A stretch of 64,000 nt of DNA, from the NCBI RefSeq assembly GCF_001273845.1, contig NZ_JHBW01000110.1:62001-126000 (forward strand), written 5' to 3'. Below, piece after piece: positions 4,523-28,964 of this stretch. Positions within the stretch are counted from its first letter, which is position 1, and every line of letters starts with the position of its first letter. The position numbers and the translations under genes were made by a program. This stretch comes from Leucobacter musarum subsp. musarum. Lineage in GTDB: Bacteria > Actinomycetota > Actinomycetes > Actinomycetales > Microbacteriaceae. The notes under the pieces were generated by a model that was not told the DNA's origin, searched no databases, and worked only from the letters and a program-made list of their open reading frames with translations.

Positions 4523-4562
4523 AACCGTGCAGTCTACTTCGTGTCGCTGAAGAGAAGCAGCG

Positions 4563-5294
4563 TCAACCTGCGAGCGCGGAAGAGACCGGTGTGAGATCCC
4601 CTTGCGCACGCCACCAGGTCACCGCCGAGGCAAGTGTCCCGAGGTTGGCAGCGAGGTCGCCGCTCCCAACAAAAAACTCGCCCGCCGCATAGTGCCGTGT
4701 CAACACCTCGGCGAGTGCAGCATCGTGCCCGGCGCGTTCGACGCCAACGGCATTGACGCCGGTGAGCCTCGGGGGCGTGCCGTACACCTTGGCGAACGGG
4801 GGAACGTCGCGGGTGACCGGCGTGCCCATGCCCACCATCGCGCCGGGAGCGATGATGCGGCGCTGATGCACGACCGCGTTCATGCCGATGTTGACTCGGT
4901 CGCCGATCACGCAGTGCCCCCCGACGGAGACTCCGGCCGAGACCGTCGAATCGGCGCCGAGCAGCACGTCGTGTGCGAGATAGGCGCGGTTGAGCACCCA
5001 GCTTCGTGCGCCGACCGTCGTTTCGCGATAGGTGCCCTGGTGAATGACCGCTCCCTCACGAATCACCGCGCCGGCACCGATGCGCACGCCCGCGTGCTGC
5101 AGGTCGCCGTTCCACGCAGTGTTCTGGGGCAGACTCGACATCTCGGGCGGTGCGCCGATCTGTGCGCCGGGGCCGATCCACACCCCGTCTTCGACCGTGC
5201 ATGGCCCGAGGAGCACTGCGCCCGGGCCGATCTTCACGTCGGCACCCAGGGTGACGCCGTCGCCGATGAATGCGAGTGGACTGATGTCGTTCAT
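4563..5294 (-). CDS. LpxA-like left-handed beta-helix acyltransferase
   Basis: The 243-residue product is built of hexapeptide repeats throughout residues 1-190, as in acyl-ACP:UDP-GlcNAc acyltransferases. LpxA-type landmarks are visible: AYLAHDVLLG (catalytic His region), GGHCVIGD, GMNAVVHQ, VGMGTPVTRDVPPFAKVYG and LTGVNAVGV. LpxA proper makes lipid A, which a Gram-positive lacks, so this member probably acylates a nucleotide sugar for the surface glycan encoded around it. ATG at 5294 has AGGAG six bases upstream; the frame is also open upstream but would overlap the neighbour. It lies in the exporter operon, 25 bp after the DUF6541 gene. Whether it uses acyl-ACP or acyl-CoA cannot be told. 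Confidence 0.85.
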   Translation of the reverse strand: MNDISPLAFIGDGVTLGADVKIGPGAVLLGPCTVEDGVWIGPGAQIGAPPEMSSLPQNTAWNGDLQHAGVRIGAGAVIREGAVIHQGTYRETTVGARSWVLNRAYLAHDVLLGADSTVSAGVSVGGHCVIGDRVNIGMNAVVHQRRIIAPGAMVGMGTPVTRDVPPFAKVYGTPPRLTGVNAVGVERAGHDAALAEVLTRHYAAGEFFVGSGDLAANLGTLASAVTWWRAQGDLTPVSSALAG

Positions 5295-5319
5295 GCTTCT
5301 CCTGTGAATTGCGCGGGCG

Positions 5320-7311
5320 TCAGCAGCCCGAAATGCGATAGAGCACGGCGTCACCCTGCCGGTCCACCTCAGTGAGCACGGGGGATCGATCGAGATGCTG
5401 CATGTTCGCGAACGGAACGCCGCGGGGGCCGGGATCAGGGATCACGAACTTCTGACCGAAGTCGATGACATACGAGATGTCGAGCTCGTGAGAGAGCGTG
5501 CACGCGCGTTGCGGGTCACGCACGAGCGCATTCACGAACTCGTAGTCGCGCGGGTCGTAGATGCCGCCGGAGTGCGGAAACGTCACTTCCCGGTCGGCGA
5601 GCGCGTACGTCAGCGCACTGCCGTTGAGCGGGTTGTTCGCGATGACTTCGCCTTCGGGTACTTCGTCATCGAGCCGCTCGAGCAGTTGGAGCTCGTCGTC
5701 ACTCACCAGCAGCGACTGCTTCGCGTCGTAGCTCTCGGTGACGATCTGCTGAATGCGGAACGTGCCCGACTGGCCAACGGCCACGAACGCGGCGATCGAG
5801 AGCACGGCGAGGAACCGGAAAGCTCGACGCGGGCGCGATGCAAAAGCTCGGGTCGAGCGTCGCAGCACGGGCCGCAGCCACGCCCAGATCGCTCGGCCAC
5901 CGAGCACCATGAGTGGGAGTGCGCCGAACGGCACCAGCGCCGCGAGACGTCGAGGGTCGTTGTACCAGGGGCTCACGAACAGGGTGCGCCACTCAGAGGT
6001 GGGGAAGCCGTCGGCGATGACGTACAGCAGCGCGAGCGCTGCTGCGCTGCCAATGACCCAGCGCAGCGAGCGCGAACGCCACGCCAGTAGCGCGCCGAGC
6101 AGCACGACGGCGGAGACGGCCCAGGCGTGACCCTGAATATGCGGGGTGCCGCCGATCAGCTGGAAGAGGGCGCTGCGCGGCCCGAAGAAGCCCTGCCACG
6201 CATTGTCGGTGGTGCGACCCCCGACCCAGGCGACGACGACCGCCGCTGCGAAGATGCCGAGACCAATCACGGCTCCGACACCGCGCACCTCACGCGAGAA
6301 TCGCGGAAGCGCCGAGAGGCCTTCGGTCGTCGGTACGGGCCGACCGCGAAGCGCGCGAATGGCGGCGAACAGCACCGGGAACGCACCCCAGACGAGCAGC
6401 ACGTGCACCACGCTCGGATGCGCGAGTGATGCGGCTCCCAGCGCGCCGATGAAGAGCAGCCAACGGGTCGCGGGCGTGAGCGGTTGCGCGCGTCGGGCGG
6501 GCCCGAGATTGAGCAATTGCAGGCCGGCGACGAGCACGTAGGGAAGCAGAATCAGCGCGAGGATGTTGGGGTAGAGTACCCCGTACCCGGCGAGGAAGAG
6601 CGGGAAATTCGGGAATGCCGCAGCCGCGGCGCCCGAGATCCAGAGCACGGCAACGCTAGGGCCGGCGATCGCGCGACCGAGTGCGACGATGCCGATGGGC
6701 CAGACGACGCATGCAGTAGTGAAGAGCACAGCATTGGTGGCGACGGGGATGCTCGCGCCGCTGAGCTGCACGACCAACGCGACGAATGCGTGCCAGAGCG
6801 TCGGGTAGAACACCGGTGAGCCGGGTGACGTGAGATCCATCGAGAAGGGTGAGGCTGAGCCGCCGTCCAAGATGTATCGCACCGCATTCAGGTGGAAGTT
6901 CGCGTCGAACGTTTGCGAGATGGCGTCAGGCTGCTTGATCGCGGAGAAGAGCGCGATCGCGAGCACGAGACCGCCGACCGCCGCCGCCGCGAGGCCGACC
7001 CACAGGTCTGCCCAGCCACGGTGGCCGCCCGCGCCTCGAACGGCTGCGGGGGCAGCGAACCAGCGACGCAGCAGACAGAGGATCGCGCCGAGTACCAGGG
7101 CGACCACCACCGGGGGAAGCACCCCCCAGCGGACCTGCGCGAACGGTGCCACGATGCTCGTAGCCGCGAGTACCGCGAATCCGGCAGGCACGGCAACCGT
7201 CACGAGCGCGAACCCGCGCAGTCGCAGCGCGAATGCCGACGGCAGGCCGAGCACCGCGATGATCGCGATCGCGACGATCACGGGCAGCGCGAACGCAAGC
7301 CATGCGGTCAT
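5320..7311 (-). CDS. DUF6541 family polytopic membrane protein, probable GT-C-like glycosyltransferase
   Basis: 663 residues with many hydrophobic helices over positions 1-500 and a soluble C-terminal tail of about 150 residues ending in an aspartate-rich exoplasmic-looking domain. DUF6541 proteins are actinobacterial polytopic proteins found in glycan loci; their architecture resembles GT-C enzymes that use polyprenyl-phosphate sugars outside the membrane. The adjacent DUF2304 protein (4-bp ATGA overlap) and the polyprenyl-phosphate GT2 upstream fit a lipid-linked donor pathway. Function is inferred from architecture and context; no catalytic motif was assigned. Confidence 0.75.
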   Translation of the reverse strand: MTAWLAFALPVIVAIAIIAVLGLPSAFALRLRGFALVTVAVPAGFAVLAATSIVAPFAQVRWGVLPPVVVALVLGAILCLLRRWFAAPAAVRGAGGHRGWADLWVGLAAAAVGGLVLAIALFSAIKQPDAISQTFDANFHLNAVRYILDGGSASPFSMDLTSPGSPVFYPTLWHAFVALVVQLSGASIPVATNAVLFTTACVVWPIGIVALGRAIAGPSVAVLWISGAAAAAFPNFPLFLAGYGVLYPNILALILLPYVLVAGLQLLNLGPARRAQPLTPATRWLLFIGALGAASLAHPSVVHVLLVWGAFPVLFAAIRALRGRPVPTTEGLSALPRFSREVRGVGAVIGLGIFAAAVVVAWVGGRTTDNAWQGFFGPRSALFQLIGGTPHIQGHAWAVSAVVLLGALLAWRSRSLRWVIGSAAALALLYVIADGFPTSEWRTLFVSPWYNDPRRLAALVPFGALPLMVLGGRAIWAWLRPVLRRSTRAFASRPRRAFRFLAVLSIAAFVAVGQSGTFRIQQIVTESYDAKQSLLVSDDELQLLERLDDEVPEGEVIANNPLNGSALTYALADREVTFPHSGGIYDPRDYEFVNALVRDPQRACTLSHELDISYVIDFGQKFVIPDPGPRGVPFANMQHLDRSPVLTEVDRQGDAVLYRISGC

Positions 7312-7721
7312 GCTGGGGGAGCTCCGTGCGAACCGGTGTCACCGTCTCCGAGCGACGTCGGTGGGGCGGCATCTCGGTGCGCCTGCGCCTCGAGCATGCG
7401 TGCCTCCATCAGCGCGACCGATCGAGCAAGTTCTGTCACGCGGGCGTCGCTGCGAGCCTTCGCGCGGACGACGGTCGCCGCGAAGATGAGCATGGCGACG
7501 ATGAAGAGGTAGAGCAGCAGATCGGTGCCGCGGCCGATGCCGAAGAAGATGGCAACGGTGGTGAGCACGCCAGGGAAGAGGATCGCGGCGGCGGCGGCCA
7601 GCACGAAGAGGATGGCAAAGATGCGTTTGAGCGCGAGCGAACGTTCGCCCGGCAGAAATCGAACCGCGAGCGACGCGGCGACCACGACGACCGCGATGAG
7701 CAGAACTTGAAAGATAGACAT
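7308..7721 (-). CDS. DUF2304 domain small membrane protein
   Basis: 137 residues with three hydrophobic segments (about 1-20, 32-55, 63-87) followed by a charged helix. This is the pattern of DUF2304 proteins, which usually sit next to DPM1-like polyprenyl-phosphate glycosyltransferases, as here (6 bp downstream of that GT2). Its TGA overlaps the ATG of the DUF6541 gene. It may anchor the GT2 at the membrane or help handle its lipid-linked product; this is inference from gene neighbourhood. Confidence 0.75.
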   Translation of the reverse strand: MSIFQVLLIAVVVVAASLAVRFLPGERSLALKRIFAILFVLAAAAAILFPGVLTTVAIFFGIGRGTDLLLYLFIVAMLIFAATVVRAKARSDARVTELARSVALMEARMLEAQAHRDAAPPTSLGDGDTGSHGAPPA

Positions 7722-7727
7722 GGGCGC

Positions 7728-8426
7728 CTAACGAATGATGAGGTCCACGAGGATGTTCACGGAGTTGAGCAGCGACTGCCCCTTGGCCTTCGAATAATCG
7801 GTGTAGATGACCTCGACGGGAAACTCGGTGTACGGCAAGCCGGTCTTACCGAGTTGCACGACGATCTCGGTGCCGTGGGCCATGCGATCTTGCCGCAGCT
7901 TGATGCGCGAGGCCGCATCGGCGCGAATGACGCGCAGCCCATTGTGGGCGTCGGTGAGGCGCGTGCGCGTCGTCACGTTCGTCACCCACACTGCGGTCTT
8001 GAGCACGATCTTCTTGAGAATGCCCGGGTTGGTGCGGTCGTCGAGAAACCGCGATCCGAACACGATCGCCATGTCTTCGTCGCGCGAGACCTGCAGCATG
8101 GCCGAGGCGTCGACCACGCGGTGCTGACCGTCGGCGTCGAACGTCACGATGTATCGCGCCCCCCGCTCAAGGGCGTAGCGGAAGCCCGTCTGCAGCGCGG
8201 CACCCTGGCCGAGATTGATGGGGTGGGTGACGATACGGGCTCCCGCTGCGCGCGCCACGTCGGCAGAACCATCGCGCGAACCATCGTCGATGCAGACAAC
8301 GTTCGGGAAGACGGGGATCAGTTCCGAAACGACCCCGCCGATCACCGTCGCCTCATTGAAGAGCGGGATGACGACCCACGTGTCAGTGTTGGCGGTCGCG
8401 CCTGAGAGCGCGGGGTCGAGCGTCAT
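7728..8426 (-). CDS. GT2 polyprenyl-phosphate glycosyltransferase (DPM1-like)
   Basis: 232 residues from ATG 8426. The GT-A fold is clear: VVIPLFNEATVIGGVV at the N-terminus, DDGSRDGS, then TFDADGQH as the DXD-bearing motif, and FGSRFLDD followed by a short amphipathic C-terminus. This is the small GT2 type that loads sugar from an NDP-sugar onto polyprenyl phosphate on the cytosolic face. The adjacent DUF2304 and DUF6541 genes are its usual partners. The nature of the sugar is not readable. A longer frame extends to 8684 but would run into the upstream acyltransferase gene. Confidence 0.88.
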   Translation of the reverse strand: MTLDPALSGATANTDTWVVIPLFNEATVIGGVVSELIPVFPNVVCIDDGSRDGSADVARAAGARIVTHPINLGQGAALQTGFRYALERGARYIVTFDADGQHRVVDASAMLQVSRDEDMAIVFGSRFLDDRTNPGILKKIVLKTAVWVTNVTTRTRLTDAHNGLRVIRADAASRIKLRQDRMAHGTEIVVQLGKTGLPYTEFPVEVIYTDYSKAKGQSLLNSVNILVDLIIR

Positions 8427-8455
8427 GCGTCCATTCTGACAGACCGGTGGCGTGT

Positions 8456-10636
8456 TCACGGGGTTGGCGCCGCAACGAGCCCGGCGAGTTGCGCATTGAA
8501 CCAGCGTGCGAGCGAGAGCGAATACATGCCCGTGAGGTGATTGTCGTCGGAGTACATGATCAAGTCGCCCGTGATCATGTGGCAGGTGCCGTCGGGGCAG
8601 GTGACCGCGTAGGTGTCGATGACGGGCACATTGAGCGAGTTCGCGTCGGCGACGAGCCAGTCGGCGAACTGCGGATCGGGCCACGCGCAGACATCATCGG
8701 CCGCAGGGATCGCGAGCACGCAGCCCGGGCCGGTGAAGGCATCGCCGTTGGCGTCGCGCGCGCCGACCGAGGGCACGTCGCGAATCACGATGACCTGTTT
8801 GCCGGCGTCGACGAGCTGCTGCAGCCCGACCCGCGCCGCGTCTCCGAGATCGTAGAGATTCGTGCGCAGGCTGACCAGCACGGTGTCCACGGTCGGGTCA
8901 TTCGCGATGTCGGATCGCAGGGCCGCGCCCCACTCGGCGCAGCGGGCCGCATTCTCGTCGTCGGCTGCGCTCGGTTCGGTGAACAGCCCGCACGATGCCC
9001 GACTCTCGAGACGCAGCGACCAGTCGTTGGCCGCAGCGACGCGCTGGATCGGTGCGAAGATGTGCTCGGCGTGGGAGTCGCCGATCATGACGACACCGGG
9101 AGCGCTCGCATCGCCGTTCGACTCCGGAAAATCGCAGGAGCGCTCCTTCCAAGAGCCAACGGTGGTTGCCGTGCAGTGCTCTGCCCCGATACCGGAGTCG
9201 AACCAGAACCAGGGGCGATCCTGCTCGGCGAATGCCGGGTCGATTGCGGCGGTGTACTCGTGCGGATTCGCGCAGTCATCGAGTATCGCGGAGGCTCCGA
9301 CGCAGCTCGCGGGCTGTACTCCGGCAGCATCGAGGGATTCGCCTTCGAGGAGCGCCTGGATCTGCGCACGCCGATGGTCCACGTCGGCGTTGATCGCCGC
9401 GGTCTGCCCGACCACGAGCCCGATGATGGCGAGCATCGCGACCGCCATGCCGCCGAACGTCGCCCAGCGCGTGCGCAGCACCCCGGGCGCGCGGCGGATC
9501 GGTTCCTCGACGAATCGCTGCGTGAGCCACGCGAGCACGATCGTGACCGGCAGCACGATGAGTGCGAGTCGCCAGTGCGGCTCGGCCCCCGAACGGTCGC
9601 CGAGCATGATCGGAAGCACGATGATCAGCGGCCAGTGCCAGAGGTAGATGGCGTACGACGTGTCGCCGATGAACTGCACGGGTCGCAGATGCATGAAGCG
9701 CTGCGGGCTCCCGGTGAATGCCGCCTCGCCGGGGGAGCGATCGCCGAGCCAGATGAGTGCGGCGGTCGCGCCGACCGGCAGCAGCGCGATCCATCCCGGA
9801 AAGGCGGTCGCCGCGTCGAACGCGACCGCCGACCCGACGATGACGACGAGTGCGATCCAACTGCCGACGAGCTTCATCCCCGGAGCCCAGCGCGACGCCG
9901 GAATGAGCGCGATCAACCCGCCGAGTACGAATTCCCAGGCCCGGGTCGTGGTGAAGAAGTAGGCCGTCTGCTGCGAACGTGCGGTTTCGATCATTGAGTA
10001 CGCGAGCGAGGCGACGAATACGACGAGCAGGAGTGCGAGCACGATGGTGCGCAGGCGCGGGCCGCCGCGCTTCGCCGCGATCAACGCGAGACTCGCGGCC
10101 ACGGCGATGAGAATCGGCATCACCAGGTAGAACTGCTCTTCGACCGAGAGCGACCAGTAGTGCTGCGCCAGCGACGGCGGGTTCGCGGCGTTCAGATAGT
10201 CGACCGCGTCGGCCGCGAGGTGCCAGTTCACGATGTAGCCGGCCGCGAACCCGATGTCGCCCAGATTCTGCGTCCGGCTGATCGAGGGCATGACGGTCAG
10301 GGTCAGGATCGCGGAGACCGCCAGCACCAGGAGCGCCGCGGGCAGCAGCCGCCGCACTCGCCGGGCCCAGAACTCCACGACTCGCACGCGGCCGGTGCGC
10401 TCTGCTTCACGCAGCAGGTGCCCTGTGATGAGGAAGCCGCTGATCACGAAGAAAACATCGACGCCGATGTAGCCGCCGGGGAGCCGGTCTGGGAAGAGAT
10501 GGAAAGCGACGACGAGCGCAACAGCGAGTGCGCGGAAACCCTGGATGTCGCGCCGTTTGCCCCGCTGGGACGAGGCCGCTGCCGGGGCAGGATCGTGTCG
10601 CGGGGTGGTCTGCAGTGGTGCGTGCTGGGAGTCGAT
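8456..10636 (-). CDS. OafA/YrhL-type membrane O-acyltransferase with C-terminal SGNH domain; non-canonical start
   Basis: An acyltransferase-3 membrane domain is followed by a periplasmic-side SGNH hydrolase-like domain with MIGDSHAEH near residue 517 and a late SDDNHL block near 697. Such proteins transfer acyl groups to surface glycans. The conserved N-terminus (DIQGFRALAV, GGYIGVDVFFVISGF) lies upstream of the first available GTG at 10447, so that GTG cannot be the true start. Between an in-frame TAG (10645-10643) and that GTG there is no ATG, GTG or TTG. ATC at 10636 lies six bases after a TAGCCT -10 hexamer and would give a leaderless 726-residue protein; CTG at 10615 is the other candidate. 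The gene is certain and its start is not. Confidence 0.8.
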   Translation of the reverse strand: MDSQHAPLQTTPRHDPAPAAASSQRGKRRDIQGFRALAVALVVAFHLFPDRLPGGYIGVDVFFVISGFLITGHLLREAERTGRVRVVEFWARRVRRLLPAALLVLAVSAILTLTVMPSISRTQNLGDIGFAAGYIVNWHLAADAVDYLNAANPPSLAQHYWSLSVEEQFYLVMPILIAVAASLALIAAKRGGPRLRTIVLALLLVVFVASLAYSMIETARSQQTAYFFTTTRAWEFVLGGLIALIPASRWAPGMKLVGSWIALVVIVGSAVAFDAATAFPGWIALLPVGATAALIWLGDRSPGEAAFTGSPQRFMHLRPVQFIGDTSYAIYLWHWPLIIVLPIMLGDRSGAEPHWRLALIVLPVTIVLAWLTQRFVEEPIRRAPGVLRTRWATFGGMAVAMLAIIGLVVGQTAAINADVDHRRAQIQALLEGESLDAAGVQPASCVGASAILDDCANPHEYTAAIDPAFAEQDRPWFWFDSGIGAEHCTATTVGSWKERSCDFPESNGDASAPGVVMIGDSHAEHIFAPIQRVAAANDWSLRLESRASCGLFTEPSAADDENAARCAEWGAALRSDIANDPTVDTVLVSLRTNLYDLGDAARVGLQQLVDAGKQVIVIRDVPSVGARDANGDAFTGPGCVLAIPAADDVCAWPDPQFADWLVADANSLNVPVIDTYAVTCPDGTCHMITGDLIMYSDDNHLTGMYSLSLARWFNAQLAGLVAAPTP

Positions 10637-10642
10637 CGGACC

Positions 10643-10648
10643 AGGCTA
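10643..10648 (-). promoter_or_regulatory. -10 hexamer TAGCCT of the OafA-type operon
   Basis: Six bases before the ATC at 10636. This is the spacing of leaderless genes in this window. Confidence 0.55.
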
Positions 10649-10673
10649 ACAGGGCGCAGCGCGGCGGTGCCGG

Positions 10674-10679
10674 TATCCT
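10674..10679 (+). promoter_or_regulatory. -10 hexamer TATCCT of the aminotransferase gene
   Basis: Gives a leader of about 38 bases containing AAAGGTGA before ATG 10725. Confidence 0.5.
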
Positions 10680-10724
10680 GGCAGCTGACGATCCGCATAA
10701 CCGTGCGCGAAAGGTGATACTTCT

Positions 10725-11834
10725 ATGTCTGACTTCATTCCTGCTGCCAAGCCCCTGATCGGTGACGAGGAGCGCGAGGCGGTCGACCGGGTGCTGCGTT
10801 CCGGAATGATCGCGCAGGGACCCGAAGTCGCGACGTTCGAGCAGGAATTCGGTGCGCACTTTGCCGAGGGCCGCCCCACGGTGGCCGTGAACTCGGGTAC
10901 GAGCGGTCAGCACCTCGGCCTGCTCGCTGCGGGCGTCGGTGCGGGCGACGAAGTCATCGTGCCGTCATTCACCTTCGCCGCGACCGGCAACTCCGTCGCG
11001 CTGACCGGGGCCACCCCGGTCTTCGCCGATATCGAGCCCGACTCGTTCACGCTCGACCCCGAGTCGGTCCGTGCTGCGATCACGCCGCGCACCAAGGGCA
11101 TCATGCCGGTGCACCTCTACGGCCACCCGTTCCTGGTCGATCAGATCGAGGCGATCGCGCAGGAGCACGGACTCGCAATCTACGAAGACGCCGCGCAGGC
11201 CCACGGCGCTTCCTGGAAGGGACGTCCGGTCGGCACCATCGGCGACTTCGCCATGTTCAGCCTGTACCCGACGAAGAACATGACCTCGGGTGAGGGCGGC
11301 ATGGTCACGTGCGCCACCGAGGAACTCGCTCGTGGAGTGCGCCTGCTGCGCAACCAGGGCATGGAGACCCAGTACGCGAACGAGGTCATCGGGTTCAACG
11401 CGCGCATGACCGATGTGCATGCCGCGATCGGCCGCGTGCAGCTGACCAAGGTCGACGCCTGGACGGCGCAGCGTCAGGCGAACGCCGCGGCGCTCAACGT
11501 GGGTCTTGCGGGCCTCGACGGTGTCACCACTCCGATCGTCGCCGACGGTGCGGTGCACGTCTACCACCAGTACACGATCCGTGTCGATGCCGACGAGCGC
11601 GACCGTCTGCGCGACGCGTTGAAAGAGGAGCATCAGGTGGGCTCGGGCGTGTACTACCCGATCCCGAACCACCGCCTGCCGTCGCTCGCACACTTCGCCC
11701 CGGGGCTCGACCTGCCCGAGACCGAGCGCGCCGCCGCCGAGGTGCTCTCGCTGCCCGTGCACCCCTCGCTGACCGAGGGCGACCTCGAGCGCATCATCGC
11801 CGGCGTGACCGCGGTACTGCGAGCCGGAGCCTAA
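10725..11834 (+). CDS. DegT/DnrJ/EryC1/StrS family PLP-dependent sugar aminotransferase
   Basis: 369 residues of the fold-type I sugar aminotransferase family, which transaminates keto-sugar nucleotides from glutamate. Family features are AVNSGTSG (53-60), the GDEVIVPSFTFAAT block, EDAAQAHGA, and the PLP-binding lysine in FSLYPTKNMTSGEGG (Lys184). The start ATG has AAAGGTGA upstream. The sequence resembles the WbpE/GnnB branch, which makes 3-amino sugars from 3-keto UDP-HexNAc. The Gfo/Idh/MocA oxidoreductase at 26448 would supply that ketone. The exact sugar is inferred, not shown. It is divergent from the OafA operon. Confidence 0.9.
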   Translation: MSDFIPAAKPLIGDEEREAVDRVLRSGMIAQGPEVATFEQEFGAHFAEGRPTVAVNSGTSGQHLGLLAAGVGAGDEVIVPSFTFAATGNSVALTGATPVFADIEPDSFTLDPESVRAAITPRTKGIMPVHLYGHPFLVDQIEAIAQEHGLAIYEDAAQAHGASWKGRPVGTIGDFAMFSLYPTKNMTSGEGGMVTCATEELARGVRLLRNQGMETQYANEVIGFNARMTDVHAAIGRVQLTKVDAWTAQRQANAAALNVGLAGLDGVTTPIVADGAVHVYHQYTIRVDADERDRLRDALKEEHQVGSGVYYPIPNHRLPSLAHFAPGLDLPETERAAAEVLSLPVHPSLTEGDLERIIAGVTAVLRAGA

Positions 11835-11873
11835 GCCAGGTACGCCCGCGCTCGCGGGTCGCCTGACAGCATC

Positions 11874-13679: not shown

Positions 13680-13727
13680 TCGTTCGGCGGCGTCGAAACC
13701 CGGTGCGGACCGCCGCCGAACATCGCT

Positions 13728-13733
13728 TAGGCT
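13728..13733 (+). promoter_or_regulatory. -10 hexamer TAGGCT, leaderless start of the acyltransferase
   Basis: Six bases before ATG 13740. Confidence 0.55.
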
Positions 13734-13739
13734 GGAATG

Positions 13740-14933: not shown

Positions 14934-14948
14934 CGCCGCGCCGAGGCG

Positions 14949-15821: not shown

Positions 15822-15902
15822 TGTCTCACCGTAGCGCCGCTGACGCCTGCGTCTCTAGCAACATCGGACGAATCTCAGGATCCCGGGAGCGATGGCGGCG
15901 AG

Positions 15903-15908
15903 TACGAT
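15903..15908 (+). promoter_or_regulatory. -10 hexamer TACGAT of map
   Basis: Eight bases before ATG 15917. Confidence 0.5.
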
Positions 15909-15916
15909 GGACCCCG

Positions 15917-16690: not shown

Positions 16691-16747
16691 AGGGTTTCAG
16701 GCCCTCCGATGCGGGCGGGCGCGACGCCGAGGCGGTTGGCTGAGTGC

Positions 16748-17827: not shown

Positions 17828-17833
17828 GTTTCG

Positions 17834-17839
17834 ATGCTA
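17834..17839 (-). promoter_or_regulatory. -10 hexamer TAGCAT of the GT2 gene
   Basis: Six bases before ATG 17827. It partly lies in the stop region of the upstream paralogue. Confidence 0.5.
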
Positions 17840-18901: not shown

Positions 18902-18907
18902 GCGTCG

Positions 18908-18913
18908 ATGGTA
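18908..18913 (-). promoter_or_regulatory. -10 hexamer TACCAT of the GT2 gene
   Basis: Six bases before ATG 18901. Confidence 0.55.
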
Positions 18914-18987
18914 GCGGCCCCCACGATCTGGGCTCGTGGCGAGCGCAGGTATTCTAGAGGGCGCTGCCCGCACCCGATTGGACCCCC

Positions 18988-20139
18988 GTGACCCGCACCG
19001 CTGAACTGCGCGCCTCGACGACGCTCGCCGAGCCGACCCCGCGCCTCGACGCTCTGACCGGCCTGCGCTGGTGGGCCGCCTTCATGGTCTTCCTCTTTCA
19101 CATGGAGGTCTTCGCGCCGCTCCCCGGCCGCATCTCAGACGTCTTTCACCAGGGGTACCTCGGGGTCACGTTCTTCTTCGTGCTTTCCGGTTTCGTGCTG
19201 ACCTGGTCGATGCGACCGGGCGTCTCGAAGTCGACGTTCTACTGGCGACGGTTCGCGCGCATCTGGCCGGCACACATGGTCGCTCTGCTCTTCGCGATCC
19301 CGGTGTTTTACACCCTCGCCCCGGTGCCCGAGGGCAGCTTCTTGAAACCGTTCGATATCGGCCTGCTCCTGCTTTCCGTGCTCTTGCTGCAGGGCTGGTC
19401 GGCGAATTCGGCCGTGCTGTTCTCGGGCAACCCGGCTGCCTGGACACTCACCGTCGAAGCGCTCTTCTACGCGCTCCACCCCTGGATCTCGAAAGTGCTG
19501 CTGCCGCTCAGCCGGCGCGGCGCCCTGTGGCTCGGCGTGTTCGCGCTCGTGTGGGCGTTCGCCTACCGTGCAGGGGTGCTGCTCTGGCCCGAATCGTGGC
19601 TCATCCACGTGCCGATGCCGATCACGCGCGTCCCCGAGTTCCTGCTCGGCATGGCCCTCGCCTGGGCCGTGCGTCTGGGGTGGCGTCCACGCGTGCATCC
19701 GGTGCTCGGGATCGCGGCGCTCGCCGTCGTGGTGCTCGGTATCGTGGCCTCCACCACGCGCCCGAGCATCTTCCTCTTCGGATTCTTCGGGAATGAGATC
19801 TTCACCGTTGCGGTGGGGCTCGCGATCGTGTCGCTCACCGCGCACACACTGCGCGGAGGCCGCACCTGGTTCGACGCGCGTTGGCAAGTGAAACTCGGTG
19901 AATGGTCGTTCGCGTTCTACCTGGTGCACGCGACCGTGATTTATCTGGCACTACGCATCTTCGGGTTCCAAGACGCATCGTGGCGCAATCTCGGCTGGCT
20001 CGTCGTGCTGCTCGCCTGCGATCTGCTGCTCGCCTGGGTGCTCCACCGTTTCGTGGAGCACCCGCTCGAACGACGAATGCGGAAGTGGAAAGATGCGCGA
20101 AGCGGGCGTCGACGTTCGTCGTCAGTGCGCAGCGCGTGA
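18988..20139 (+). CDS. Acyltransferase-3 family membrane protein
   Basis: 383 residues with about ten membrane helices and the family motifs LDALTGLRWWAAFMVFLFH (family Arg and His) and GYLGVTFFFVLSGFVLTW. The GTG start at 18988 follows a TATTCT hexamer by about 33 bases. It is the third such membrane acyltransferase in the locus and is immediately followed by an acyl carrier protein and a ketoacyl synthase gene. This raises the possibility that its acyl donor comes from that pair. Known family members generally use acyl-CoA-derived donors, so that link is a hypothesis. Confidence 0.88.
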   Translation: MTRTAELRASTTLAEPTPRLDALTGLRWWAAFMVFLFHMEVFAPLPGRISDVFHQGYLGVTFFFVLSGFVLTWSMRPGVSKSTFYWRRFARIWPAHMVALLFAIPVFYTLAPVPEGSFLKPFDIGLLLLSVLLLQGWSANSAVLFSGNPAAWTLTVEALFYALHPWISKVLLPLSRRGALWLGVFALVWAFAYRAGVLLWPESWLIHVPMPITRVPEFLLGMALAWAVRLGWRPRVHPVLGIAALAVVVLGIVASTTRPSIFLFGFFGNEIFTVAVGLAIVSLTAHTLRGGRTWFDARWQVKLGEWSFAFYLVHATVIYLALRIFGFQDASWRNLGWLVVLLACDLLLAWVLHRFVEHPLERRMRKWKDARSGRRRSSSVRSA

Positions 20140-20150
20140 CTGTGGATTGC

Positions 20151-20156
20151 TAATCT
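20151..20156 (+). promoter_or_regulatory. -10 hexamer TAATCT of the ACP gene
   Basis: Six bases before ATG 20163, just after the upstream acyltransferase stop. Confidence 0.55.
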
Positions 20157-20162
20157 GAGTCC

Positions 20163-20378
20163 ATGGAAAAGAACTCCCTGCTGCAACTGGTCGCCGAAAT
20201 TCTCGAGGTCGACGCCGTGTCTGAGACCGAGAGTCTCGAGAACCAGGGTTGGGATTCTCTTGCGAACCTCTCGTTCATCGCGGAAGCCGACATGCGCGCG
20301 GGGATCGAGATCAATGCCGATGAGCTGGCAGACGCTCAGACGGTGGAAGATCTGTTCGCCCTCGTTCAGCGCGCATAA
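20163..20378 (+). CDS. Acyl carrier protein, dedicated (non-FASI/FASII housekeeping context)
   Basis: 71 residues with the four-helix ACP pattern and the phosphopantetheine attachment Ser32 in GWDSLANL; canonical ACPs have DSL at this site. The protein is acidic. A TAATCT hexamer six bases before the ATG gives it a probable leaderless promoter inside the end of the upstream acyltransferase gene. The ketoacyl synthase III gene follows 26 bp later. Such a private ACP usually carries an acyl group for a specialised product rather than bulk fatty acids. Confidence 0.9.
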   Translation: MEKNSLLQLVAEILEVDAVSETESLENQGWDSLANLSFIAEADMRAGIEINADELADAQTVEDLFALVQRA

Positions 20379-20404
20379 TCGCTGACCCTCGGTCGGAGCC
20401 TGGA

Positions 20405-21439
20405 GTGTACGCGCGCGTCGCCGCCGTCGAATATCACCTGCCCGAGCAGGTGCTCACCAACGCAGGCCTCGCCGAGGAGTTTCCGGAGTGGAGCGTCGAC
20501 AAAATCGCGGCCAAGACCGGCATTCATCGGCGACATATTGCGGCGCCCGACGAGTATTCTTCGGATCTCGCGATTGCTGCTGGTCGCCGACTGATCGAAC
20601 GCGACGGCATCGACCCTGAAACGATCGACTACGTGCTCGTGGTCACGCAGACGCCCGACTATCTGCTGCCGACGACGGCATGCATCGTGCACGAGGGGCT
20701 CGGGCTCCGCGCCTCGGCAGGCGCTGCCGACATCAACCTCGGCTGCTCCGGGTACATCTACGGCCTGGGCCAGGCCAAAGGGCTGATCGAGTCGCGCCAG
20801 GCGACGCGCGTGCTGCTCATCACCACCGACACCTACACGAAGCTCGTCAACCCGCGTGACAAGAGCGTGCGCACGATCTTCGGTGACGGTGCTGCAGCGA
20901 CCCTCGTCGAGGTCGAAGAGGCCGAAGAGGTCGACGCGGCCGACGAGGCCGTGGAACGCATCACCGCGATTACCTACGGCACGGACGGCAGCGGCGCTGG
21001 GCGACTCGTCGTACCCCACGGTGGACTCCGCGGCGGCGCAGATCTCGAGCCCCGGTCGACCGCCGCAGCGCGTGAGCTGGAGAGCAACGGGTATGACCTC
21101 TACATGGATGGCCCCGAGATCTTCAACTTCACCCTGCGCGTCGTTCCCGAGTCCGTGGACGCCGTGCTTGAGAAGGCGCAGGCCGGTCTCGACGATATCG
21201 ATCTCTTCGTCTTCCACCAGGCCAACGCGTTCATGCTTGAACACCTGCGCAAGAAGCTGAAAGTGCCTCAGGAGAAATTCTTCGTGTCTCTCGCGGAGAC
21301 CGGCAACACCGTGTCATCGTCAATTCCAATTGCGCTCACCGACGCCGTGTCAGCCGGGACGCTGCGCCCGGGCATGCGGGTCATGCTGCTCGGGTTCGGC
21401 GTCGGCCTCTCGTGGGGCGGGCTCGTACTGACCTGGTAG
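20405..21439 (+). CDS. 3-oxoacyl-ACP synthase III (KAS III / FabH-like)
   Basis: 344 residues of the thiolase-fold KAS III family. The catalytic triad is complete: Cys114 in NLGCSGYIYG, His271 in FVFHQANAF and Asn301 in ETGNTVSSS. These enzymes condense an acyl-CoA starter with malonyl-ACP. GTG start. With the adjacent ACP it forms a two-gene cassette that could make a short beta-ketoacyl-ACP; no ketoreductase or dehydratase is in the window, so any further processing would need other enzymes. The gene is convergent with the glycosyltransferase operon, 7 bp away. Confidence 0.92.
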   Translation: MYARVAAVEYHLPEQVLTNAGLAEEFPEWSVDKIAAKTGIHRRHIAAPDEYSSDLAIAAGRRLIERDGIDPETIDYVLVVTQTPDYLLPTTACIVHEGLGLRASAGAADINLGCSGYIYGLGQAKGLIESRQATRVLLITTDTYTKLVNPRDKSVRTIFGDGAAATLVEVEEAEEVDAADEAVERITAITYGTDGSGAGRLVVPHGGLRGGADLEPRSTAAARELESNGYDLYMDGPEIFNFTLRVVPESVDAVLEKAQAGLDDIDLFVFHQANAFMLEHLRKKLKVPQEKFFVSLAETGNTVSSSIPIALTDAVSAGTLRPGMRVMLLGFGVGLSWGGLVLTW

Positions 21440-21446
21440 CAGGTAG

Positions 21447-22685: not shown

Positions 22686-23845
22686 GCGGTGCTCCGTTCG
22701 GCGGCGACGGCGACGATCTCGCGCGCCACACGATCGGTCACCGCCTGCATCGAATGGTGGGCTGCGGTCCACGCGGCGAGCTCTCGCCGTTGCTCCGCGG
22801 TCGGCGGTCGGTCAGCTGCCCGACGCATCGCCTCGGCGATCGACGAGACGTCGTACTCGACAGCCTGACCCACCGTCACGTCGTCGGACGCGCGCTCGAG
22901 GAACGCCGCGGTGGGGCCCGGGCCGGCGAAGATGACGGGGCACCCGGTCGCCATCGAGGAGTAGATCTTCGACGTGAAGGCGTATTCGTACCCGCCCCCG
23001 GGCAGTAGGGTCGCCAGGCTGGCGGTGGCCGCCGCGAGCTCGGGGCGAAGCGCTGCAGGCAGCACGGAATCGCGCATCTCGACCTGCGCGCTGACTCCGA
23101 GATCGCGCGCGCGATCCTCAATTGCTTGCCGCTCGGTGCCGTTGCCGATGAATCGCAGTGTGAACCCGGGGTGCGTGCGCGAGAACTCCGCGAACGCGTC
23201 GACGAGTACGACCGCACCGTGCAAGTTGCTGAACGTTCCGGCATAGACGAAGGTGCGCTGGATCGGCCGCTCCTCGTACACGAACGAGTCGGTATCGGCC
23301 CCGAAGCCGGTCACCGCCATCGGCGTCTGCACTCCGAGTGCTCGCGCGCGTTCCACGACTCCATCGGAGATCGTGACCATGCGTGCGGCACCGCGCATCG
23401 CGAATCGCTCGAACGCACGCAGCACCGTCACCACCGCGCTCGAGCCGGTGGCACCGGATGCCGCATCAGACCACACGTCGGCCGCGTCATACACGTAGGG
23501 TATGCGGCGCAGCGCGCACACAATGCGCACGACCGCTCCGGTGGTGGGCGGTGGCTCGACGAAGACGGCGTCGGATCGCCGAGAGAACAGCAGACGGAAC
23601 GCCAGGGGCGCGTCGAAGCTCAGATACTGCAGATATCCGCGAACGTAACCGGTGCGATCACGCAGCACGGGAAACGTACGCACGCGCTCTCCGCGGGAAC
23701 CACTGCCCTGTCCGGGAAGCGGGCGTGCAGTCAGCACCTCGACCTCGTGTCCCTGCGCGAGGAGCGAGTCTGCCACGCCGCCCAGAAACAGCGACGCGGC
23801 GGAGGGCTCGGGCCGGTAAATGCGGCTCGCGATCGTAATGCGCAT
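22682..23845 (-). CDS. GT4 family glycosyltransferase (WbuB-like)
   Basis: 387 residues with a GT-B fold: N-terminal MRITIASRIYRPEPSAASLF and a glycine-rich GGVADSLLAQGHEVEVLT, middle YDAADVWSDAASG, and C-terminal donor region VYAGTFSNLHGAVVLVDAF with EYAFTSKIYSSMATGCPVI. This matches the WbuB/WcaI type that adds an amino sugar to a lipid-linked intermediate. Its ATG shares one base with the stop of the gene upstream, and its stop overlaps the next start by 4 bp, so it is translationally coupled on both sides. Confidence 0.87.
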   Translation of the reverse strand: MRITIASRIYRPEPSAASLFLGGVADSLLAQGHEVEVLTARPLPGQGSGSRGERVRTFPVLRDRTGYVRGYLQYLSFDAPLAFRLLFSRRSDAVFVEPPPTTGAVVRIVCALRRIPYVYDAADVWSDAASGATGSSAVVTVLRAFERFAMRGAARMVTISDGVVERARALGVQTPMAVTGFGADTDSFVYEERPIQRTFVYAGTFSNLHGAVVLVDAFAEFSRTHPGFTLRFIGNGTERQAIEDRARDLGVSAQVEMRDSVLPAALRPELAAATASLATLLPGGGYEYAFTSKIYSSMATGCPVIFAGPGPTAAFLERASDDVTVGQAVEYDVSSIAEAMRRAADRPPTAEQRRELAAWTAAHHSMQAVTDRVAREIVAVAAERSTA

Positions 23846-25020
23846 CAGTCGAGGTCCAAGAACTCGCGCATCAGAACTTCGCGCGAGAAGCCCCCGCTGT
23901 GCAGGCGGCGAACGAACTCCGGTCCGAGAGCCGCGACCTCACGGTAGTGGTCTCGACGGTCGGCGATGTCGCGGATCACCGATTCGAGATTCTCGACCGT
24001 GGCTTCGGGAATCGGCAACGGCATGCCGGCGGCCGCCTCGACGGTCGACCGCACCTGGTCGCTCACGTGCGCGAGCACAATACGCCCGGACGCCATCGTC
24101 TCGCAGGCCGCGACTCCGTAGTCGCCGACCCGGAACTGGTCGAGCACGATGTCCGCGTCGGCGAACACGCTCGGCATCTCGTCGTTCGGGATACCCCGCA
24201 ACTCGACGTATTCGATGACGCCCTCGTCGTGCAGCTTGCGCGCAATCGGCTCGATGAACCCGGTGCCCTTGACGATGGGGTTCGTCGGAGCGTGCACCAC
24301 CTTGAGGCGCGGGCGTTCGAGCAGCGGTGACGTGTTCGCCCATTTGCCAGGGTTGATGATGACACCGAGGAAGTGGGCAGCGGGCAGGTCGAGCAGTAGC
24401 CCGGCTGTCGACACGAACGTGGGGAGCGCGAGGTCTTCGATGAGTTGTAGGTTCTCAGCGACGACCTTTTCCACGAGTTCGGGTGCGACCCATTCGTCGT
24501 CGCGGAAGAACGACCACTGCTCCAGCTCGGCGTGCCGAGAAGGCAGACGAACATCGGTGCCGTGGCCCACGAACGCGACCTTTAGGCCGGCATCTTGCAT
24601 GAGCGAGATCTGCTTGCGCATGTCGCCGGCGTACAGCCCGCCGAGCACCGGGAAGCACGCCTCGACGAGCACGTGCGTGTAGTTCTTTCGCAGTGCTTCG
24701 ATCATCGCTCGCTGCCAGGCGCGCGAGTGCTCCGCCGTTCGCCAAGACACGGTGTAGTCGGCCGCGTAGCCGAGCGGGTTATTGGCCTCGTGCACGTAGT
24801 TGCGCGCCGACACCTGGCCGGTTGTCTCGACGGCGCGCGACCACTGGTACCCCTGGCCGGCGTAGTTGACCGGACCGACAAGCAGCCGAGTGGGCCGAGT
24901 GGTATCGGGCACCGGGGGTGCCGGAGGAACAATGCCCTGCGCGCGGTCGACCGCCGACGCGATGGCGTCTTGCGCAAACTTCGGGGCGATCTTCCAAAGA
25001 CGCTCAGCGACGGGGTGCAC
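23845..25020 (-). CDS. GT-B-like glycosyltransferase, NYAGQG paralogue B
   Basis: 391 residues from GTG 25020, which has AAAGGA eight bases upstream; ATG 25029 is an alternative only just downstream of that same AAAGGA. The paralogue blocks LLVGPVNYAGQGYQWSRAVE, FVGHGTDVRLPSRHAEL, TFVSTAGLLLDLPAAHF and VLDQFRVGDYGVAACETMASG are all present. It overlaps the upstream paralogue by 17 bp. Each paralogue differs most in the segment between residues about 70 and 130, which may set acceptor specificity. The activity itself is inferred. Confidence 0.78.
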   Translation of the reverse strand: MHPVAERLWKIAPKFAQDAIASAVDRAQGIVPPAPPVPDTTRPTRLLVGPVNYAGQGYQWSRAVETTGQVSARNYVHEANNPLGYAADYTVSWRTAEHSRAWQRAMIEALRKNYTHVLVEACFPVLGGLYAGDMRKQISLMQDAGLKVAFVGHGTDVRLPSRHAELEQWSFFRDDEWVAPELVEKVVAENLQLIEDLALPTFVSTAGLLLDLPAAHFLGVIINPGKWANTSPLLERPRLKVVHAPTNPIVKGTGFIEPIARKLHDEGVIEYVELRGIPNDEMPSVFADADIVLDQFRVGDYGVAACETMASGRIVLAHVSDQVRSTVEAAAGMPLPIPEATVENLESVIRDIADRRDHYREVAALGPEFVRRLHSGGFSREVLMREFLDLD

Positions 25021-26239
25021 CTCGGCCATCCTTTCGGTCGGGCAGCGAAATCCAGTGATCCAAAAGCGCACGTGCTGCAAACGCGCCGTCGTGCACGTGC
25101 CGCACGAATGCGATGCCACGGGCTCGAGCAGCTCGGAGATCGGGATCTTGGGCGAGGCTCCGAAGCGCCGCCTCAAGGGTAGCCGGTGTCGCCTCGGTAA
25201 TCGGGAGCTCATCTCCGGACGCGTCGCGGACGGCCGATCGCACCTGGTCGGAGACCTGGCCGATGACGAGACATCCGGCGGCGAGCGCCTCGCACGCTGC
25301 GACACCGTATGAGCCGGCGCGGAACTGGTCGAGCATCACATCGGCGGCAGCAAACTTCGCCGGCATCTCACTCGATGGGACGCCCTGAATCAGCTCGAAG
25401 GTGATGATTCCGGCCTCGCGCAGCCGCTCGAGCACCGGCACGATCAGGGGCGTGCCCTTGTACGCGGCGACCGATGGCGCATGCACGACATGCAGGGGGG
25501 CGCCGGGGCGTCGTTCGCTCCGAGACCGCGCGGCCCAGCGCTCGGGGTCGACAGTCACTGGGCACCACACAGCGTTCGGCAGATCCACGAGCAGATCAGG
25601 GGTCGACACGAACGCGGGGCGCCCGCTCGACTCGACGAGCGCGATGTTGCGCGAGGCCAGCTGTTCCGCTCGGGGAAGATACACCGCATCGTCTGCGTAG
25701 TAGGACAGCGGGTTGTGCTCGATATGGCGCGACGGGAGGCGGGCATCTGTGCCGTGAGCCAAGTAGGCGACGCTCACCCCTGCCTCCGCAAGCGCGCGCG
25801 CCTGCGCGCCGACTGATCGGCGCATCAGGCGCCCGAACGGTGGCTCCTCGGCTTCGATGAGTACGTGGGTCGCCTGAGCGGCAGCCGCGAACTGGCGTCG
25901 TTGCCAGTCGGGGTCGTTGTGATAGGTGCCTTGCGGTACGACGAGATCCGCATCGAACGAGAACCCGCCCGGCACATCGATTGCCATATTCCGCGCTGAG
26001 ATATCGTTCTCGGCGCGTTCGAGCGCGCGAGCCCACGCGATGCCCTGCGCCGAATAGTTCACCGGGGCGATGAGTACCCGAGTCGGCTTCTGATCGAACT
26101 CGGTCGCGAGAACGCTGCCGCGCGCCGCGGGCCGGCCCAGCCGGCGAGCGGCGATCCGGCCCAGCGGACTCATCGGCGCATCCGCGAGTCGATCGATCGC
26201 CCAGTTCACCCAGTGCGGCAACCGGTTGCGGTTTACCAC
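25004..26239 (-). CDS. GT-B-like glycosyltransferase, NYAGQG paralogue C; first gene of operon
   Basis: 411 residues from GTG 26239, with GGGAG upstream and a TAGTAT -10 hexamer at 26276-26281. Blocks shared with paralogues A and B are VLIAPVNYSAQGIAWARALE, YLAHGTDARLPSRH, AFVSTPDLLVDLPNAVW and MLDQFRAGSYGVAACEALAAG. The N-terminal 45 residues (HWVNWAIDRLADAPMSPLGR) form an amphipathic helix-like segment also present in paralogue A, possibly for membrane association. As first gene it sets expression of the whole four-gene glycosyltransferase operon. Confidence 0.78.
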   Translation of the reverse strand: MVNRNRLPHWVNWAIDRLADAPMSPLGRIAARRLGRPAARGSVLATEFDQKPTRVLIAPVNYSAQGIAWARALERAENDISARNMAIDVPGGFSFDADLVVPQGTYHNDPDWQRRQFAAAAQATHVLIEAEEPPFGRLMRRSVGAQARALAEAGVSVAYLAHGTDARLPSRHIEHNPLSYYADDAVYLPRAEQLASRNIALVESSGRPAFVSTPDLLVDLPNAVWCPVTVDPERWAARSRSERRPGAPLHVVHAPSVAAYKGTPLIVPVLERLREAGIITFELIQGVPSSEMPAKFAAADVMLDQFRAGSYGVAACEALAAGCLVIGQVSDQVRSAVRDASGDELPITEATPATLEAALRSLAQDPDLRAARARGIAFVRHVHDGAFAARALLDHWISLPDRKDGRGAPRR

Positions 26240-26275
26240 TCGTCACTCCCACCGCGCCGAAACTGCATGCTCTCC

Positions 26276-26281
26276 ATACTA
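26276..26281 (-). promoter_or_regulatory. -10 hexamer TAGTAT of the glycosyltransferase operon
   Basis: About 36 bases before GTG 26239; the leader carries GGGAG. Confidence 0.5.
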
Positions 26282-26447
26282 ATTGTCTGCAGGCAGGGGC
26301 GACCTTCGAGTATCGGAGCACACGTGACGCGAGTCTGGAACGCGAGGACGGGCTCCAAAACCCTGCTTGCCGGTGCCGTCCCCGTAAACTGTGAGGGTTC
26401 GCCTCTGGCGAGCCGTACGAAACGCAGTCGACTTGGAGGATGATTCC

Positions 26448-27404
26448 GTGGCGCAACCCAATGTGGTCCTGTTCGGTGCTGGCACGATGGGGCGCAATCA
26501 CGCGCGCATCATCTCGACGTCGGCGCGTGCCAACCTCGTCGGTATCGTCGACCCGTTCGAAGCGAACGGGCGTGCGGCGACCGATCAGTACGGCGGCGAA
26601 TGGTACGCCACAGCCGAAGACGCCCTGAAGCACGCTGACGCGGTCGTCGTCGCGGCGTCGACGGAATACCACTACGACATCGCGCGCGAGATCCTCGATG
26701 CGGGGCTTCCGGTGCTCATCGAAAAGCCGATTTGCCCCTCACTGGAGCAGACCGAAGAGATTCTGGCGACGGCCGAGCAGCGCGGCGTGCCGGTGCAGTG
26801 CGGCTTCCTCGAGCGCTTCAACGCCGGTGTCATCGCCGCGCAGTCGCTGATCGAGTCGGAGCCGGTGTATGTGCGGGCCGAGCGCCACTCACCGTACTGG
26901 TCGCGCATCAAAACCGGTGTGGCATGGGACGTGCTCGTGCACGACGCCGACCTCATCTCACGCATGTTCGGCTCGCAGACGCCCGAGCGCGTCAACGCCG
27001 AACTCGGCTACTTCCACCCCGAGTCGCTTGAGGGCGCGGAAGACGTGATCGACCTCACCCTGCGGTTCCCCGGCAACGGCATTGCCTCGGCCTCGGCCAG
27101 CCGCATCGGTCAGCGCAAGGTGCGCCGCCTCACGATCCAGTCCCTCGGCTCCATGGTCGAGGTCGACCTGCTGCTGCGCGGCGTGACGAAGTATCGCCAC
27201 GCGAACATCGAGGGCACCGACGGTCGCGCCGGGTTCAAGCAGATGACCGAGATGGAGGTCCCCGAGGTCTCCGGGCTTGAGCCGCTCGCCGCGCAGTTCG
27301 ATCACTTCGTCGATCTCGTCGAGGGCAAGATCGACGCCGACGAAGAGCGCCGCAGCATTCTTCCCGCCCACCGCATCATCGCCTCGGCGCTGCAGCAGGG
27401 CTGA
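26448..27404 (+). CDS. Gfo/Idh/MocA family NAD(P)-dependent sugar oxidoreductase (WbpB/GnnA-like)
   Basis: 318 residues from GTG 26448 with TTGGAGGATG upstream. The Rossmann motif is VVLFGAGTMGRNHARI; the catalytic-region EKPI is in VLIEKPICPS; the His-containing block is WDVLVHDADLI. CGFLERFNAGVI resembles the GHxERFNP block of WbpB/GnnA-type UDP-sugar 3-dehydrogenases. Such an enzyme would oxidise C3 of UDP-GlcNAc or its uronate for the DegT aminotransferase at 10725. It ends in a hairpin shared with the convergent gene. The substrate is inferred from family branch and locus content. Confidence 0.87.
   Translation: MAQPNVVLFGAGTMGRNHARIISTSARANLVGIVDPFEANGRAATDQYGGEWYATAEDALKHADAVVVAASTEYHYDIAREILDAGLPVLIEKPICPSLEQTEEILATAEQRGVPVQCGFLERFNAGVIAAQSLIESEPVYVRAERHSPYWSRIKTGVAWDVLVHDADLISRMFGSQTPERVNAELGYFHPESLEGAEDVIDLTLRFPGNGIASASASRIGQRKVRRLTIQSLGSMVEVDLLLRGVTKYRHANIEGTDGRAGFKQMTEMEVPEVSGLEPLAAQFDHFVDLVEGKIDADEERRSILPAHRIIASALQQG

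Positions 27405-28960: not shown

Positions 28961-28964
<4 letters not shown>
28749..28964 (-). CDS. Small coiled-coil protein of 71 residues
   Basis: A short gene overlapping both neighbours by 4 bp (ATGA at each end), which is good evidence that it is real. Residues about 22-60 form a heptad-like coiled coil (VAHLQAELQVERERITRLEA). The N-terminus is basic (RRAASRARRAL). Nothing in it suggests catalysis. It may oligomerise or tether the fused LicD-methyltransferase enzyme encoded just upstream to the membrane protein encoded downstream. Confidence 0.7.

Follow-up and report, generated by a model that had tools for sequence, protein, structure and literature searches.

A candidate route to an N-acetylated 3-amino sugar, combining a GnnA-like dehydrogenase and an LpxA-fold acyltransferase, in an apparently mosaic glycan locus of Leucobacter musarum

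GnnA, GnnB and LpxA of Acidithiobacillus ferrooxidans and Leptospira serve the formation of UDP-GlcNAc3N for lipid A. The Wbp/Wlb pathway (WbpA-WbpB-WbpE-WbpD-WbpI) is described in Gram-negatives and Thermus (PMC10622841), and wall glycans of Streptomyces containing GlcNAc3NAcA and ManNAc3NAcA were published in 2025 together with the utr genes (PMC13274773). We investigated a stretch of 64,000 nucleotides of Leucobacter musarum subsp. musarum (contig NZ_JHBW01000110.1, positions 62,001 to 126,000; hereafter the window), which encodes an LpxA-like protein, a DegT aminotransferase and a Gfo/Idh/MocA dehydrogenase, here called Gfo1. To judge from the genomic evidence, these three enzymes are very probably a pathway to an N-acetylated 3-amino sugar of a surface glycan.

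4563-5294, minus strand: LpxA-fold acyltransferase, putative 3-N-acetyltransferase (243 aa; listed open reading frame (ORF) 4563-5354)
10725-11834, plus strand: DegT/DnrJ/EryC1 aminotransferase of a WbpE-like clade, putative UDP-sugar 3-aminotransferase (PF01041, maximum-likelihood tree)
26391-27404, plus strand: Gfo/Idh/MocA dehydrogenase Gfo1, GnnA-like, putative UDP-GlcNAc(A) 3-dehydrogenase (PF01408, structure match; conserved portion from about 26448)

With the Wbp/Wlb and Utr systems the locus would share C3 oxidation, DegT transamination and 3-N-acetylation, and its DegT falls in the clade that such operons have within this bacterial family. It differs from them in having Gfo1 rather than Gfo2, a Gfo protein with 23-32% identity to Gfo1, and an LpxA-fold protein rather than a hexapeptide enzyme of the WlbB/WbpD type; neither Gfo2 nor a Trp-type 2-epimerase was found in the genome of the window. 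It resembles the GnnA/GnnB/LpxA system in that Gfo1 finds its best structural match in GnnA and in that the LpxA-like protein keeps the LpxA fold with its catalytic His, but the host is Gram-positive, the genes stand in a glycan locus with an ABC exporter, the acyl group is probably acetyl rather than a long chain, and the LpxA-like protein scores below the NCBIfam LpxA cut-offs.

Evidence that the three genes act together comes from their distribution. We screened 299 genomes from across the family and identified LpxA-like matches at E <= 0.001 in 272 and strong matches (E below 1e-40) in 24, the next best after those being 2.8e-15. Gfo1, defined by a profile of the window's type at E <= 1e-70, occurred in 15 genomes from 11 genera, all of them within the 24, and Gfo2 in 58, nine of them within the 24. 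The LpxA-like genomes are thereby split into 15 with Gfo1 and 9 with Gfo2, and none has both. Fisher tests for association with the LpxA-like gene, with no correction for the relatedness of the genomes, gave p = 1.8e-19 for Gfo1 and p = 0.03 for Gfo2. Neither dehydrogenase was found in G096, a genome of the same genus with no strong LpxA-like match.

As regards gene order, Gfo1, DegT and the LpxA-like gene form a compact triad of neighbours in 11 genomes out of 24, with Gfo1 and DegT divergent from the LpxA-like gene. Gfo2 immediately adjoins the LpxA-like gene in a further arrangement (8/24), with DegT adjacent (G247) or up to 11 kb away; in seven of these eight Gfo2 stands between the LpxA-like gene and a DUF6541 gene. 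Looser arrangements were found as well: Gfo1 lies 13-21 kb from the LpxA-like gene in the genome of the window, G291 and G047, Gfo2 and DegT lie about 28 kb from it in G241, and Gfo1 is on a different contig in G208.

We additionally examined the best 80 of 311 relatives' named loci, a separate collection with flanks of up to 10 kb (shorter in 23 of the 80). By a strict count, which took DegT proteins of two clades scoring over 430 bits, DegT was present in 64 loci, Gfo1 or Gfo2 in 65, both genes in 57 and neither in 8, with Gfo1 in 40 loci, Gfo2 in 25 and never the two together. Looser thresholds, admitting any DegT over 150 bits and thus distant paralogues, gave DegT in 71, Gfo in 66 and both in 62, and in 55 loci the LpxA-like frame had a DegT or Gfo frame no more than 400 bases away. 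Of the loci that have DegT and lack Gfo, seven are from Leucobacter, the genus with the nearest named relatives of the LpxA-like gene, and in the window Gfo1 likewise lies beyond the flank. These loci come from Leucobacter, Lentzea, Saccharothrix, Cellulomonas, Leifsonia, Agromyces, Microbacterium, Cryobacterium, Rhodococcus and others, and because the association is present in so many genera it is not due to chance.

The first-pass annotation had grouped the three enzymes with the reservation that their distance might mean separate sugars. The arrangement in relatives answers that doubt: since the genes are neighbours there, and since Gfo1 and Gfo2 are exactly complementary, the three genes belong together despite the 21 kb that separate the LpxA-like gene from Gfo1 in this genome of 3.4 Mb. 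It is thus very unlikely that they serve different sugars and were co-located by accident, with the DegT acting as a 4-aminotransferase. Such an account could appeal to the 21 kb and to the equally high scores of solved 3- and 4-aminotransferases on the DegT, but it has to contend with the triads and the complementarity and with the surroundings of the DegT clade, whose members share operons with Gfo2 and a hexapeptide-type gene and, mostly, a 6-dehydrogenase.

The DegT protein (PF01041, 6.4e-122) is the sole full-length DegT found in the genome, other PF01041 matches reaching at most 33.7 bits, and it is 63-76% identical to the DegTs of ten Wbp-type operons. In a maximum-likelihood tree of 46 selected rows, which included E. 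coli ArnB and WecE and had no WbpE, QdtB or GnnB reference, it nests with these Wbp-operon DegTs in a clade of 21 rows (support 96/95). Fifteen of the 16 rows labelled as triad DegTs form the sister clade (100/100), and the sixteenth (L142) falls in the clade of the window's DegT. Paralogous DegTs, ArnB and WecE lie outside both clades, with long branches that were flagged by the program, those of both E. coli rows among them.

The operons in question were recognised in Gfo2 genomes that have no LpxA-like gene, of which we selected 10 of 49 and examined 18 kb in each. In each of them DegT and Gfo2 are accompanied by an adjacent hexapeptide-type frame; seven also have a 6-dehydrogenase and three a Trp-type epimerase. 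The hexapeptide protein of one such operon has 3mqg, which we take to be WlbB, as its best solved match (123.5 bits); the best NCBIfam model for seven of the ten is a NeuD-type sugar acetyltransferase, below cut-off, and three of the ten calls come solely from weak matches to the LpxA-like family. The Wbp-type module is composed of a WlbB/WbpD-like acetyltransferase, DegT and Gfo2, often with a 6-dehydrogenase and sometimes with a WbpI-type epimerase, and Gfo1-DegT-LpxA-like is a second actinobacterial module. Because its DegT nests with the Wbp-operon DegTs, while Gfo1 and the LpxA-like protein match the other module, the window locus looks like a mosaic of the two. Parts that are interchangeable in this way suggest that both modules perform the same chemistry.

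Pfam and NCBIfam matches bear out the earlier assignment of all three proteins to their families. For Gfo1 (PF01408, 4.3e-24) the best NCBIfam model is the archaeal UDP-GlcNAc 3-dehydrogenase, at 128.2 bits and below the cut-off of 450; the Gfo2 proteins have the same best model and are likewise below this cut-off, at 184-219 bits. The predicted structure of Gfo1 (mean predicted local distance difference test (pLDDT) score 94.6) has as its top matches five chains of GnnA from Acidithiobacillus ferrooxidans (7bvj/7bvk, E 6e-26 to 3e-24), followed by an inositol dehydrogenase (E 8e-22), and no entry titled WlbA or WbpB was among the 50 structural matches listed. As its best match is GnnA, the model points to Gfo1 functioning as a UDP-GlcNAc(A) 3-dehydrogenase. 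An ERFN block, previously read as a WbpB/GnnA-like mark, is indeed present in Gfo1, as is an EKP block, but solved GnnA lacks ERFN in the alignment, so the block is no mark of GnnA.

The LpxA-like protein matches Pfam Hexapep (1.7e-23), with a partial match to the LpxA domain 2 model just below cut-off, and remains short of both NCBIfam LpxA models (140.3 bits against a cut-off of 226, and 133.9 bits against 231.05). Its predicted structure (mean pLDDT 96.4) is a left-handed beta-helix. LpxA chains lead the Foldseek matches, Pcryo_0615 of Psychrobacter cryohalolentis (PDB 8e62) ranks 27-33 with 30-31% identity, and 3hsq is a titled entry within the matches listed. By sequence, the nearest solved relative is 8e62, with 99 bits in phmmer versus 78 for the best LpxA, and 178 versus 173 bits in a family-profile hmmsearch. 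The title of this entry describes Pcryo_0615 as an N-acetyltransferase required for making a diacetamido-2,3- sugar. In contrast, 3mqg scores 25 bits against the LpxA-like protein, placing the latter outside the WlbB/WbpD type.

The active-site residues were compared across 46 aligned relatives. Equivalents of E. coli LpxA H125, presumably the catalytic His, and of H160 and Q161 are kept in all 46, and of H144 in 45, while that of K76 is not kept. The position of F162 is Arg in 37 of the 46 (R145 in the window protein), as it is in Pcryo_0615. G173 and H191, which we take to be the acyl ruler positions, are occupied by M156 and P174 in 46/46; we considered these residues as evidence for acetyl and set them aside, since Pseudomonas aeruginosa LpxA carries the same M and P. 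The C-terminal GVN..G..R.G stretch of LpxA is retained in both the LpxA-like protein and Pcryo_0615, which also share HQR and an N..G.E(R/K).G stretch. Pcryo_0615 differs in its length (189 aa versus 243 aa), in a solved chain that stops before the last helix of the window protein, and in its Gram-negative origin.

An acyl carrier protein (ACP; PF00550) and a 3-ketoacyl-ACP synthase III (KAS III; PF08541/PF08545) are present in the locus, as the first-pass annotation had described, and it had proposed from them that the sugar carries an unusual acyl amide. On this account the private ACP, with KAS III as the priming enzyme (20163-21439), would supply an unusual chain that the LpxA-like enzyme attaches to the 3-amine. 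The ACP and KAS III genes do share the locus, the C-terminal LpxA stretch is kept and the ruler residues are compatible with a medium chain, but the distribution makes the account very improbable. KAS III of the window's type (E <= 1e-85) occurs in seven of the 299 genomes, among the 24 LpxA-like genomes just in the window's own, and near one of the 80 named loci; no short ACP was seen near those 80, though so small a frame could be missed. The nearest solved relative of the LpxA-like protein is moreover an N-acetyltransferase that has the C-terminal stretch too, and the ACP and KAS III genes line up with an acyltransferase-3 gene instead. We therefore rejected the private ACP and KAS III as the acyl source on their co-occurrence (1/24 genomes, 1/80 loci). 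The proposed route of the GnnA/GnnB(WbpE)/LpxA type survives in its grouping and its 3-amino sugar, with Gfo1 accompanied by the LpxA-like gene in 15 of 15 genomes and matched to GnnA, and loses its acyl-ACP part.

The genes for the acyltransferase-3, a 71-aa ACP and KAS III follow one another on the same strand (18988-21439), and relatives of this KAS III with 51-66% identity occur in six other genomes of the sample, none with an LpxA-like gene. These three genes may be responsible for a separate, unusual O-acyl decoration.

The epimerases of relatives also bear on the acyl group. In the Thermus thermophilus enzyme, Trp307 replaces an Arg that touches the 3-hydroxyl in UDP-GlcNAc epimerases and marks a 3-NAc substrate (PMC10622841). 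Besides the epimerase of the window's genome, we read this position in those of six LpxA-like genomes and of G291 and G269, leaving G055 and G121 aside. Six epimerases scoring over 230 bits in LpxA-like genomes (G014, G158, G241, G253, G051 and G208) carry the Trp, and these genomes should therefore make UDP-ManNAc3NAcA; by this analogy their 3-N-acyl group is probably acetyl, and the LpxA-like enzyme would be the likeliest 3-N-acetyltransferase. Further hexapeptide genes are present in these genomes, two of them fairly close to the loci: G253 has a frame of 146 aa some 7 kb away, and G241 has one of 324 aa some 10 kb from its 6-dehydrogenase. An N-acetyl product thus fits better than an acyl group from ACP, and nothing we found suggests a fatty acid on the sugar.

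We propose that Gfo1 would oxidise C3 of UDP-GlcNAc (or UDP-GlcNAcA) using NAD+, that DegT would convert the resulting 3-keto sugar into a 3-amine by transamination, and that the LpxA-fold protein would N-acetylate this amine, with acetyl-CoA as the most likely donor. The product would be UDP-2,3-diacetamido-2,3-dideoxyglucose or its uronic acid, destined for a surface glycan whose probable exporter is the adjacent ABC transporter. We consider it likely that the locus is a mosaic encoding this one pathway for an exported glycan.

Two genes that bear on a uronic acid route lie 5-10 kb upstream of the window on the same contig. The 6-dehydrogenase (L093:13943-15214), about 9 kb from the LpxA-like gene, is the single clear one in the genome and is 32-35% identical to those of relatives. 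A UDP-GlcNAc 2-epimerase-like protein (L093:10211-11296), the only epimerase of its family found in the genome, has mixed specificity residues: Arg305 at the Trp307 position of T. thermophilus, but a Tyr and an Ala that it shares with the Thermus epimerase for UDP-GlcNAc3NAcA. We considered it as a candidate WbpI: its scores (278 bits for the Thermus WbpI type, 285 for the Methanocaldococcus jannaschii UDP-GlcNAc epimerase, at most 148 for WecB/MnaA) do not decide, and the Arg speaks for a 3-OH substrate, so that it possibly acts on UDP-GlcNAc or UDP-GlcNAcA. The same position is Arg in G291 and Gln in G269. The NCBIfam wecB model is passed by WecB and WbpI types alike, and the NCBIfam models similarly fail to separate the 6-dehydrogenases.

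Were these two genes to join the three enzymes, as in a full uronic route of the Wbp or Utr kind, the product would be UDP-ManNAc3NAcA. Streptomyces teichuronic acid (TUA) does contain ManNAc3NAcA/GlcNAc3NAcA (PMC13274773), both genes are on the contig of the window, and in the relative G208 Gfo1 directly follows a 6-dehydrogenase near a Trp-type epimerase. We nonetheless regard this route as unlikely here: the window's epimerase, with Arg rather than the Trp of the six relatives, should use a 3-OH sugar, and the upstream 6-dehydrogenase is only distantly similar to its counterparts. Furthermore, no 6-dehydrogenase over cut-off was found in G047, a 97% complete genome in which DegT, Gfo1 and the LpxA-like gene are all present, nor within 60 kb of the triad on the same contig in nine of the 11 compact-triad genomes, two of which have contigs of just 11 kb (G044) and 16 kb (G261). 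In the remaining two, G191 and G269, a 6-dehydrogenase lies 17-26 kb from the triad. The triad thus seems not to need one, which speaks for UDP-GlcNAc3NAc as the product in triad genomes with no 6-dehydrogenase. We tentatively extend this to a Gram-positive counterpart of GnnA/GnnB/LpxA, in which a Gfo1-DegT-LpxA-fold module might convert UDP-GlcNAc to UDP-GlcNAc3N-acyl, without uronic acid or lipid A, and with parts swapped with the Wbp-type module.

Several observations weigh against the proposed single pathway to an N-acetylated 3-amino sugar. By Foldseek E-value, LpxA chains outrank Pcryo_0615, whose identity to the LpxA-like protein is low, and the M156/P174 pair is the same in P. aeruginosa LpxA and Pcryo_0615 and so does not separate acetyl from a longer acyl chain. 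The identity of Gfo1 to GnnA is also low, at 21-22%. Because solved 3- and 4-aminotransferases score alike on the DegT sequence (DesV 272, perosamine synthase 256, ArnB 229 and WbpE 227 bits), similarity alone cannot name it a 3-aminotransferase. No DegT was found in the examined stretches of G208 (C8:108001-146482 and C19:54000-66000). Finally, the product in the window strain may be either the neutral sugar or the uronic acid.

The sugar class is already known in Actinobacteria, because the Streptomyces walls with ManNAc3NAcA and GlcNAc3NAcA have been published. The novel elements are the LpxA-fold step, the swapping of parts from one module to the other and, as read from sequence, the pairing of a GnnA-like dehydrogenase with an LpxA-fold N-acyltransferase in Gram-positives. 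The papers listed by our literature searches, at most 20 for each, included no report of an LpxA-like gene in actinobacterial glycan loci and none of a Leucobacter wall polysaccharide with such a sugar, both weak absences. If the proposed pathway holds, 2,3-diamino sugars would be present in the walls of many Actinobacteria, and the gene sets would be a signature for predicting them from a genome. The sensitivity of Streptomyces griseus to an antibacterial toxin particle has recently been tied to a polymer containing a sugar of this kind, and mutants in the gene cluster for that polymer are resistant (PMC13274773). An LpxA relative would also become available for study outside lipid A, and, should the Gram-positive counterpart be real, the acyl transfer that opens the lipid A pathway would be homologous to a step of Gram-positive wall-sugar synthesis, the two being variants of one chemistry.

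The LpxA-like gene is flanked by three genes on its own strand.

5320-7311, minus strand: DUF6541 membrane protein, immediately upstream of the LpxA-like gene
3656-4609, minus strand: Wzm/TagG-like ABC-2 permease, encoded next downstream after the LpxA-like gene, with a putative role in glycan export
2527-3672, minus strand: ABC ATPase, Wzt/TagH-like

The true start of the LpxA-like ORF is probably the ATG at 5294, which is preceded by AGGAGA. The ATPase has an LGFP repeat in its C-terminal part, possibly a glycan-recognition part. An SLH-domain protein is encoded in the window (31973-34564) and a polysaccharide pyruvyl transferase (PF04230) upstream of it (L093:17254-18807). SLH domains bind pyruvylated ManNAc polymers (PMC6030368), so the upstream epimerase may serve such a polymer. 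A UDP-galactopyranose mutase and a GlfT2-like galactofuranosyltransferase lie at 30438-31856 and 34640-36544, which makes a further glycan, one containing galactofuranose, probable in this strain. Finally, the protein encoded at 28961-30823 combines part of a LicD domain with a methyltransferase domain; several related genomes encode relatives of it close to the 6-dehydrogenase.

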